DNA of 64,000 bases. Origin: an uncultured Aeromonadales bacterium. Lineage in GTDB: Bacteria; Pseudomonadota; Gammaproteobacteria; Enterobacterales; Succinivibrionaceae. The translations under genes and the position numbers were made by a program. The stretch is taken from positions 1 to 64,000 of the forward strand of contig CACYPI010000006.1 in NCBI GenBank assembly GCA_902776275.1, read 5' to 3'. Each line of letters opens with the position of its first letter. Position 1 is the stretch's first letter. The notes beneath the pieces were generated by a model that made no database searches, was not told where the DNA came from, and worked only from the letters and a program-made list of their open reading frames with translations. Below, piece by piece: positions 53,278-57,434 of this stretch.

Positions 53278-53706
53278 TTACTTGACTGAAAGGGGAAGGT
53301 TGTCGGCCTGCCACTGGGCGATGCCACCCTCGAGCGAGACGACCTGGTAGCCGGCCTTCTTGAGGATGCGGGCGCTGTTGAAGCTGTCCGTGTCGTACTT
53401 GTCGCGGCCGACGACGATGATCTTTCGCTCGGAGCCGCCGCTGATGGAGTACCTGCCCGAGCGGATGTCGGCTGCCGGAACGTTGACCGAGCCGGGCACG
53501 TGCCCGCCCTTGAAGGTCGCCGCGCTCCTGACGTCGACGAATAGGCCGTTCTCATGGTTGACGAGGAACGTGCACTTTGCCGACGAAAGCTTCTTGATGC
53601 CGGCGGTGAGGATGCGGATCTGGACGTAGACGAGCCCGACGAGGGCGCAGACCCAGACTGCCGCGAGGATGTAGTGGCGGCCTAGGAAGGCGGTGTATTC
53701 CGCCAT
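53278..53706 (-). CDS. Membrane-anchored rhodanese-like protein, YibN type
   Basis: 142 residues from MAEYTAFLGRHYILAAVWVC, aligned to the start of E. coli YibN; an ATG 14 codons upstream is the alternative. One N-terminal membrane helix (HYILAAVWVCALVGLVYV) is followed by a rhodanese domain with NGLFVDVRSAATFKGGHVPG near residue 54. The active-site position reads IIVVGRDKYDTDS, with no cysteine, so sulfurtransferase activity is unlikely, as in YibN. Recent work links YibN to membrane-protein insertion; its job here is inferred. First gene of yibN-secB-gpsA. Confidence 0.88.
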   Translation of the reverse strand: MAEYTAFLGRHYILAAVWVCALVGLVYVQIRILTAGIKKLSSAKCTFLVNHENGLFVDVRSAATFKGGHVPGSVNVPAADIRSGRYSISGGSERKIIVVGRDKYDTDSFNSARILKKAGYQVVSLEGGIAQWQADNLPLSVK

Positions 53707-53870
53707 GTCCGCCGATGAAATGAAGTCTCCCAAAACTGACCTCTGCATGTGTAGGCTATGACTTTTTGCTGCGCAATTTTAGCATACGCGCGGCAACTCT
53801 CCCGCCGCATAGGGCGTTTGCGCTCACGCAAGTGAAAGAATTTGCGCAAGCGCCATGGCGCAGCAGACAG

Positions 53871-55632
53871 TCAGCAAACCTTTTCGACCGCTTTGGCCTC
53901 CGAACCGGAAAACACAATCGCCCAGCAGTCGAGCCTCGGCCTTTGCGCAAGCCTGGGAGCCTTCCTGTAGCGCGCAAGCTGCTCTTTTGCCTTGCGCAGG
54001 CACGACTCCACTGAGGAAGGCGTGCACTTGCCCTTGAGAGGTACTTGAGCTCGAGCAGGAAATCTATTTTGCTTGCACTGAAGTTCTCAATGAACAGGTC
54101 CCCCTGCCCGGATCACCGGTCTCAAATTCAAACGAGGGCCTCAGCGCCTTGTTGGTCCCGTTTCTTACGGAGCAGTAGAAAATCATCTGCAGCGCCTTCT
54201 CGTTAAAGCCGGAGAAGCCCGATGACAGGAGATCGGCAGTCAGGGTCCTTACGACATCGATCAATCCTTTGATGTCCTCTTTCTCAGCCATCGCCGATAA
54301 ATCGAGGTCGGGAGGAATGGCGATGTCATCCCCTTCAAGGCCAGATAGTCCAGGAAAGTCTGGAATACGATCTCGTTTGGCGGGCGATACTCCAATGATA
54401 TCTGGCTGTTGTCGCTGCCATGATTCGGCGAGAACGTCAGGAAGCCCAGATACGTGAGGAAGGAGACGAGCTGGTTGCGGTCGAAATTTCCTGCCTGGTT
54501 CAAATTCAGGTTCTGGGAACCTGGGCGACTATCGGCTTTCTATCGAGGATTTTGCTGGATATCTCGTTCACGGACTCCGGCCTTGCCAAGCGCATGACGC
54601 TTTGGAGTTTCCCAAGGTCCTCCCCCATGGAGCCGTCTTCAAGCTAGTAGGGAATGTGCCTTTGATCTATAAGATTTTTCAAGAATACCTGGCACATGTT
54701 CGTATTGAACACATGCTCGTCTGACTCAGGGGAGAACACATAGCCGTCGTAGTAGCGCTCCATGATGTCCATGATCTGGCTTTTGGTTACGCCGGGGATC
54801 CTGCTGAAGTCGACGGTTTCATCAACCACCTGTGACAGCTCATCAGCCGTAAAGCCGACCATCGAGTTGAACTCGCTTTTGGCGCTGATCTTGGTTGCGA
54901 TATTGAATCCCGAAGTCAGCGAATCCATGGAGACGGCGGAAACGCCTGTGATGAAAAAGCGCCCGATAGGCAGCCCCCTGTTTGCTCCAGATATAGCTTT
55001 TCAGGGTGCTGAAGAACCTCTTAAGCAATCCTTGATTGCCTGATACTGTCGAGCTTTTGTTTTTGAAAGCTTTCTTGTCCCTATCCAGCACCTCGTTTGA
55101 GAAGTGGTCATATTCATCGATGATCACGTAAATCCATTCGTTCTCTTTTGCCCGGTACTGGAAGTTGTTGAAGAAGTTGAAGAAGAGGGAAAGCAGTGAT
55201 TCTGGATCCTCGCGCGGGGCTTCCACCATCTGCTCGTATGAGAACCCCTTGTCAGGATGGTATTTCGAGAACTCGAAGATCCCCCTGAACAGCGCCAGCC
55301 CCAAGCTGGCCAACGCGCGGTCGGAACTGCTTGAGTCGATCCCGGAGAAATCCAGCATCAGGCAGTAGTAGGAACTAGCCTTGGGAGTCTTGTGCACATG
55401 GATCCACGCCCTCAAACGTCCGCTCAAATGCGTCCTTGAAAGCGACGTCGTAGTAAGAAAGCACGCTGGTGAAGAAGGTCTTGCCGAAGCGGCGCGGGCG
55501 CAGGAACAGCATTGCTGGCAAGTCGCTGTCTTCGGGTCGGGCTATGTACTTTGTCTTGTCTACAAAAAGCGTGTCCTTGTCAGATGCCTTCGCAAGCGGC
55601 AAATTGCCAAGGGTGAACCTCTTGAAACTCAT
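53871..55632 (-). pseudogene. Decayed AAA-ATPase-like / PD-(D/E)XK nuclease-fold gene
   Basis: A leftward gene broken into at least seven reading-frame pieces that join into about 587 residues. In order: FKRFTLGNLPLAKASDKDTL with FLRPRRFGKTFFTSVLSYY (P-loop-like, 55.4-55.6 kb), YVIIDEYDHFSNEVLDRDKK (Walker B), GFTADELSQVVDETVDF, FDRNQLVSFLTYLGFLTFSP, and a C-terminal GDLFIENFSASKIDFLLELK nuclease-fold motif ending ...DCWAIVFSGSEAKAVEKVC. Breaks lie near 55395, 54974-54978 (C run), 54644 (in-frame TAG), 54515-54517, 54330-54333 (C run), 54100-54110 and 54010. This is the common AAA-ATPase-like/PDDEXK_9 family of fermentative gut bacteria. Some breaks are at homopolymers and could be sequencing errors; the TAG is not. 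Confidence 0.85.
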
Positions 55633-55895
55633 GCTGCCCCTACACCAGATTCTTTTGAATATAGCCAACTTAGCTGGAAATCTCCTGTAGCTTCAGGCAA
55701 GGACCGACATGTAGCATGCCCATTGGGTGCAAAGAGAGGCAACCTTGCGAATGCAAGTGCTAGAAGAGGGTATGATTAGCTATGGCTAACGCGCCTTCGC
55801 GCATGAGACATTTTCCCGCGCGCCCCTTATTGGGCGCGGAGAAAGGCTAGAATGTGCACAGGCAAGAAATTTGACCACTTGAGACAAGAAAAGGT
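55633..55895. other. Gap before gpmI
   Basis: About 263 bp between the decayed ATPase gene and gpmI. A GC hairpin (CGCGCC with GGCGCG, about 55818-55840) is followed by TAGAAT (55848-55853), a likely -10 box for gpmI about 43 nt before its start. Nothing else is recognisable. Confidence 0.4.
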
Positions 55896-57434
55896 ATGGA
55901 AAAGAAAAAAACTTTCGCCCTGATCATCATGGACGGCTGGGGTGACAATCCCGACGCCAGGTTCAATGCAGTCAAGGCCGGCAAGACCCCGAACCTCGAC
56001 GCGCTGACCGCCAAGTACGCCCACACCGACATCCAGGCTTCCGGCACCTACGTGGGCCTGCCCGAGGGCCAGATGGGCAACTCCGAGGTCGGCCACACCA
56101 ACATCGGCGCCGGCAGGGTCGTGTACCAGGAGCTCACCCGCATTTCCAAGGCCATCGAGGACGACGACTTCTTCAAGAACCCGGTCCTCTGCGAGGCCGT
56201 CGACAAGGCGGTCAAGGCCGGCAAGGCCGTCCACATCATGGGCCTGATGTCCCCAGGCGGAGTCCACTCCCACGAGAAGCACATCATCGCCATGATCAAG
56301 ATGGCGGCCCAGCGCGGCGCCAAGCAGATCTACTTCCACCCGTTCCTCGACGGCCGCGACGTCCCGCCGCGCTCCGCGCAGGGCGACATCGACGTCTTCG
56401 AGAAGCTCTTCAAGGAGCTGGGCGTCGGCCGCATCGTCTCATTGATCGGCCGCTACTACGCGATGGACCGCGACAACCGCTGGGACCGCGAGCAGCAGGC
56501 CTATGACCTGCTCACCCAGTCCAAGAGCGAGTTCGCCCCGTTCAAGACCGCCACCGAGGCCCTCAAGGCCGCCTACGACCGCGGCGAGAACGACGAGTTC
56601 GTCAAGGCCTCCGTCGTCGGCGAGCCCGTCAAGATGGAAGATGGCGACAGCCTGATCTTCATGAACTTCCGCGCCGACCGCGCCCGCCAGATCACCAGGG
56701 CCTTCGTCAACGACGACAAGGACTTCACCGGCTTCAAGCGCGAGTACAGGCCCAAGCTCTCCGACTTCGTGATGCTGACCCAGTACGCCGCCGACATCAA
56801 GACCGCCTGCGCCTATCCCCCCGAGGATCTGGTCAACACCCTGGGCGAGTGGCTCTCCAAGCACGGCAAGACCCAGCTGCGCATCTCCGAGACCGAGAAG
56901 TACGCCCACGTCACCTTCTTCTTCAACGGCGGCGTCGAGACCGTGTTCCCGGGCGAGGATCGCATCCTGATCCAGTCCCCGAAGGTCGCCACCTACGACC
57001 TGCAGCCTGAGATGAGCTCGAAGGAACTCACCGACAAGCTCTGCGCGGCCATCGAGTCGGGCAAGTACGACGTCGTGATCTGCAACTACCCCAACGGCGA
57101 CATGGTCGGCCACACCGGCAAGTTCGAGGCTGCGGTCAAGGCCGTCGAGGCGGTCGACCACTGCATCGGCAGGGTCGTCGAGTCGTTGAAGAAGGTCGGA
57201 GGCGAGTGCCTGATCACCGCGGACCACGGCAACTGCGAGCGCATGAAGGACATGACCACCGGCCAGCCCTACACCGCCCACACCAACCTCCCGGTCCCGT
57301 TCATCTACGTCGGCCGCAAGGCCAGGATGCGCGAGGGCGGCCGCCTGTGCGACATCGCTCCGACCATCCTCAAGCTCATCGGCCTGCCCCAGCCCAAGGA
57401 GATGACCGGCAAGTCGATCGTCGAGCTTGAGTGA
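55896..57434 (+). CDS. gpmI: 2,3-bisphosphoglycerate-independent phosphoglycerate mutase
   Basis: GpmI interconverts 3- and 2-phosphoglycerate in glycolysis with a manganese-dependent phosphoserine intermediate. 512 residues (E. coli GpmM 514): [20 protein letters not shown] at the start, [20 protein letters not shown] with the active serine near residue 61, [46 protein letters not shown] near residue 394, and [11 protein letters not shown] near residue 443. In E. coli it is the divergent neighbour of yibN; here a decayed gene sits between them. It is monocistronic with a strong terminator. Confidence 0.98.

Follow-up and report, generated by a model that had tools for sequence, protein, structure and literature searches.

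A probable pseudogene of a DUF1703-type gene, presumably inserted between gpmI and yibN in a member of the Succinivibrionaceae

The gpmI and yibN genes are direct neighbours in E. coli, as had been stated in a preliminary description of the locus studied here; in the one E. coli genome measured, they lie 202 bp apart. In the gut-type bacterium considered below, a member of the Succinivibrionaceae from a genus near Succinivibrio, a broken gene stands between these two housekeeping genes. We asked what this gene is, whether its breaks are real, and how it came to occupy this space. The window (the whole 64,000-nucleotide stretch analyzed) is part of contig C6 of a 2.54-Mb draft genome in 129 contigs. 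The flanks of the broken gene are intact: a yibN-type rhodanese gene at positions 53278–53748 on the minus strand and gpmI at 55896–57434 on the plus strand. Both have Pfam matches, as does the PmbA/TldD gene adjoining gpmI. We conclude that the locus very probably carries a pseudogene of a DUF1703-type gene that was inserted singly and decayed in the host lineage.

The broken gene was compared by frame-aware alignment with a profile built from five intact paralogues that the same genome carries. The two are collinear over their whole length, with DNA positions 55632 down to 53879 corresponding to columns 1 to 581 of 581; a TGA is located at 53873–53871, the 3′ end of the copy. The full-length gene thus delimited (53871–55632, minus strand) has net frame changes near positions 55410, 54992, 54514, 54332, 54102, and 54037, and one in-frame TAG (54644–54646, minus strand). 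The alignment printed seven marks, but the adjacent marks at 55413 and 55408 were counted as one site, giving six. The same six sites were obtained at all four penalties tried; with the weakest penalty, eight marks were printed, two of the sites then being split. The tblastn searches, whose queries were several intact own-genome paralogues and copies found in G006, a genome of the same genus, yielded the frame order −2, −3, −1, −3, −2, −1, −3, which again corresponds to six changes, although fewer pieces were obtained with some single queries. In a leave-one-out control, all five intact paralogues aligned without a single frame change or stop. The broken gene reported in the preliminary description, including its coordinates, is therefore borne out by this comparison with intact paralogues (six net frame changes plus one TAG versus none in 5/5 controls).

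Proteins of the DUF1703 type are described in PMC1913061 as combining an AAA-ATPase_like domain (PF09820) with a PDDEXK_9 domain (PF08011) and as having an unusual Walker A motif, RPRRFGKS, and a Walker B motif, DEYD. The window copy appears to share this domain order. Its N-terminal piece (55414–55632, minus strand), which ends at the first frame change, carries the Walker A variant RPRRFGKT, and the second piece of the AAA domain (54996–55406, minus strand), in a different frame, carries DEYD. Both pieces match PF09820 above the cut-off of 26.1 bits, the first with 47.7 to 49.4 bits (49.4 for the ORF at 55375–55668) and the second with 32.5 to 33.9 bits. The remainder, comprising a linker and the PD-(D/E)XK region (C-terminal part at 53871–54514, minus strand), contains further frame changes and has no Pfam match of its own, and four further ORFs of the window copy had zero Pfam matches at an E value of 1. 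PF08011 matches 11 stretches of the host genome, the window copy not being among them; yet its C-terminal region aligns to the intact paralogues, and the two intact paralogues scanned exceed the cut-offs of both families. The window copy thus differs from the DUF1703 genes described in PMC1913061 in being broken and in having a C-terminal domain that does not score by itself. The PF09820 scores, the two Walker motifs, and collinearity over 581/581 columns agree with the initial assignment to the AAA-ATPase-like/PDDEXK_9 family, while the single open reading frame expected of a functional DUF1703 member is lacking.

The preliminary description left it to be decided whether the breaks reflect decay or sequencing error. 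ORF-free gaps were computed mechanically, using ORFs of 100 residues or more. Only one such gap in the window is longer than 1 kb (53749–54842); it lies within and just beside the broken gene, and the next largest is 561 bp. All 20 other window ORFs that were scanned match Pfam families. Five pairs of neighboring ORFs overlap, but the members of each pair belong to different Pfam families, and none looks split. The window contains 619 single-base runs of four or more, only 25 of which lie inside the broken gene; if runs had caused errors, further genes would be expected to show them. Since the breaks fall in one 1.76-kb gene and no sign of another split gene was seen in the rest of the window, they are taken as real, and the balance shifts strongly toward decay; as judged from the assembled sequence, the breaks would be true mutations.

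It could be argued instead that the gene is intact and has been corrupted by sequencing or assembly error. The breaks are small shifts, three of the six have a run of four or more no further than 12 bases away (compared to 29% of gene positions), and the assembly is a draft. However, neither the search for ORF-free gaps nor the scan of 20 other ORFs revealed a second broken gene in the window, although all but 25 of its 619 runs lie outside this one. A TAG is present besides the frame changes. Collapse of repeats is not expected either, because the intact paralogues of the window copy’s subfamily are only about 44 to 46% identical to it in protein. We therefore consider an error of this kind very unlikely. 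The view that most of the breaks are one-base changes in homopolymers has weak support: half of the breaks are near runs, and the first one is not clearly a one-base change.

The locus was also said to be richer in A/T than its neighbors, and this difference is real. In 1-kb bins, the G+C content is 0.523 and 0.515 for the two bins of the gene versus 0.594 to 0.665 for the adjoining ones; bins at 49–51 kb are likewise low (0.546 to 0.564). At the first, second, and third codon positions, the window copy has G+C contents of 0.49, 0.38, and 0.72, while the intact copies have 0.50 to 0.55, 0.37 to 0.42, and 0.61 to 0.78, respectively, so its composition is coding-like. Low G+C as a sign of decay was ruled out, since the intact paralogues are similar in codon-position G+C.

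The origin of the gene at this site was approached through the corresponding space in other genomes. Of 55 genomes with gpmI (the host included), 11 were dropped because they lack yibN in this arrangement on the gpmI contig; in the remaining 44, the two genes share a contig and diverge as they do in the host. The distance between the two genes is 2147 bp in the host versus 193 to 465 bp in all 16 measurable same-genus relatives (16 of 18, those with both genes on one contig), and the gene is absent there. In 36 of the 43 other genomes, these 16 included, the gap is under 650 bp. It exceeds 1 kb in the remaining seven, and in the five of these that were examined (G051 and G055 were left out), none of the ORFs of at least 100 residues is related to the broken gene. 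The gap could also be measured at 73 of 80 named gpmI loci, where it ranges from 93 to 607 bp, and none of the 80 loci matches the five intact paralogues at an E value of 1e-4. The simplest reading of the gap sizes is insertion in the host lineage followed by decay, insertion being inferred in preference to repeated loss.

Under the opposite polarity, the gene would be ancestral at the gpmI-yibN site and would have been lost in the sampled relatives. Family matches in all 56 bacterial-family genomes searched are compatible with this, and gains and losses may both be frequent. Nevertheless, the gap is smaller than 650 bp in every measurable same-genus relative, in most of the other genomes, and at 73/73 measurable named loci, and the larger gaps examined are without a related ORF, which makes ancestral presence extremely unlikely. 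In a different genus of the bacterial family, the gpmI-yibN gap of two genomes, G025 (L206) and G035 (L207), is occupied by a single long ORF (1128 and 1161 residues, respectively) whose start, as read from the letters, resembles that of a lipoprotein.

The DNA that is absent from the gpmI-yibN space of G006 spans approximately positions 53788–55713, its borders being uncertain by tens of bases owing to a weak alignment. The best fits to this empty site, of low score, place the borders at about 53787–53799 and 55713–55727; judged by eye, the borders could lie as far along as about 53850 on the left and about 55775 on the right. For G018, the fit had a negative score and was uninformative. No transposase match was found among the gene pieces scanned, which within the insert are only pieces of the broken gene. 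Repeats at the insert are short and mostly intragenic, and a weak inverted pair (19 nt, 74%; 54024–54042 and 55742–55760) has one arm in the gene. No mobile-element hallmark or convincing end repeat was recognized, but with borders known to tens of bases, a short target duplication could escape. The window has no Rfam family at gathering scores. Upstream of gpmI, at 55776–55789, there is a near-perfect palindrome, TTAGCTATGGCTAA, the only such place in the window. At up to two mismatches, 0.09 matches are expected, but the pattern was drawn from the same place. Similar letters are seen by eye upstream of gpmI in G006 and G018, and the palindrome is possibly an operator.

The preferred reading, a pseudogene of an inserted gene, implies the following course. 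A single DUF1703-type gene would have entered the gpmI-yibN space in the host lineage after its split from the sampled relatives and would then have been inactivated by several small indels and one nonsense change. The full-length protein would no longer be made, and an N-terminal fragment shorter than 100 residues is the most that could be. The decay is probably fairly recent, because the copy retains its full length, its motifs, a coding-like GC3 of 0.72, and 142 of the 168 invariant residues, those on which all five intact copies agree. When four of the five copies were used as reference, the window copy kept 78 to 84% of the invariant residues and the left-out intact copies kept 85 to 98%. 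This reduced retention may reflect either some erosion or simply a greater distance, which these data do not separate. A close orthologue was not found among the candidates scored, at most six per genome, the best other DNA match being 74% over 225 bases in G006.

That the breaks are in use, either in programmed frameshifting or because the N-terminal piece still yields a short product, is scarcely credible. This piece does retain a start codon and the Walker A motif, and the most similar other broken copy, on contig C22, has the same net frame change at the same alignment column, but the lesions differ and so do not form a shared site with a shared signal, the five aligned intact copies have no frame changes and eight own-genome copies are one open frame, and six changes plus a stop far exceed any programmed gene that we know of.

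The multicopy nature ascribed to the family is evident in the host genome, where PF09820 matches 21 stretches. These represent 20 distinct places, since two of the matches come from the window copy. Thirteen of the 20 places could be judged, the others being six cut by contig ends and the distant copy on C54. Eight copies are intact (five by the frame-aligned control and three by open frame length only, 631 to 644 residues), and five are broken. Besides the window copy, the broken ones are C24, which has one frame change; C10:25288 and C42:7419, each interrupted by a single stop; and C22, which aligns to 426 of 581 columns and has five frame changes at the standard penalty, or fewer and a stop at stricter ones. 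The C22 copy (L028, G000:C22) and the window copy both change frame at column 77. A shared break was rejected since the lesions differ, and the coincidence could be due either to chance or to a fragile spot. Eight contigs of the host (C91, C84, C30, C51, C53, C120, C97, and C39) appear to end inside a DUF1703-type gene. The family thus probably breaks the assembly, making the copy number uncertain.

PF09820 exceeds its cut-off in 56/56 bacterial-family genomes searched (the host included), with 1 to at least 45 matches per genome, 9 genomes having at least 45. The median is about 21 by hand tally, in which top counts are lower bounds and broken genes can count twice. In 14 well-known control genomes, one subthreshold signal and no match over the cut-off were obtained. 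Some copies stand in tandem rows: L213 of G006 (C56:9500–21000) has five DUF1703-type genes with open frames of 583 to 593 residues, and such rows are also seen in L198, L201, and L204 of G014, a one-contig genome. In G014, two of five aligned copies are defective (a stop in L191 and an alignment that ends after 259 of 540 columns in L202), but the five were chosen partly for their odd look, so this is not a rate. L197 of the same genome, suspected of being broken from its ORF lengths, was rejected as such, since frame-aware alignment revealed no frame change or stop.

The family had also been said to spread in gut bacteria. The copies are indeed many and scattered; a recent jump, however, was not caught, because the best copy pairs are only about 88% alike among 16 stretches of G014 and 90% alike over 380 bases in the host genome. 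In the G014 stretches, scattered copies resemble each other in the coding region and in a leader, some tens of bases long, but no further. The same extent is seen for the host pair C10/C41, which is 86% alike. Shared ends of copies were not found. These limits, together with an insert that contains no other recognized gene, support a reading in which DUF1703 genes of the Succinivibrionaceae are transposase-free single-gene units, perhaps spread by their own predicted nuclease and ATPase and often decaying after arrival, with the window copy as a dead unit. A strict form of this reading is weakened by the contig-end pieces C84 and C53, of another own-genome subfamily, whose likeness (about 85%) runs some 220 bases past the open frame. 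As a whole, we regard it as improbable.

A plasmid or phage source of the copies was rejected, as no record is close enough. Nine plasmid records have 27 to 33% identity; their sources include Bacteroides, Phocaeicola, or Parabacteroides (five records) and Thiothrix (two records). Ten unannotated records titled “Bacteriophage sp.”, which derive from faecal samples, have 26 to 35%. The C41 copy had no relative in a scan of viral contigs, which reaches close relatives only.

A comparable expansion exists in the symbiont Cardinium, which belongs to a different phylum than the host. For Cardinium cCpun, 25 DUF1703 paralogues with an average identity of 39% are reported, including some partial genes that lie near scaffold borders and may be artefacts (PMC6387759). 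The present genome resembles that of cCpun as portrayed there in being host-associated and in having many divergent paralogues, some of them incomplete, but the window copy is located well within a contig of considerable length, and its decay is by frame changes.

As to function, a tabulation of defence systems places PF09820 under RADAR (RdrA), PARIS1, and Old-tin (PMC10952713). A PADLOC scan of two intact paralogues at an E value of 0.1 returned zero families; two intact paralogues have no family in PHROGs or NCBIfam, and one of these has no sequence match among solved structures. A defence role for the DUF1703 family may still be entertained in light of these comparisons.

Overall, the window copy is most likely an ordinary pseudogene of a known, expandable multicopy family. 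For correct annotation, this means that 53871–55632 should not be entered as a series of small proteins. By itself, the copy matters little. However, a predicted nuclease-ATPase family is present in all sampled genomes of the Succinivibrionaceae, and its broken copies are frequent in the one genome that was studied in detail, which makes this bacterial family a tractable case for learning why DUF1703 genes multiply and what their role is.
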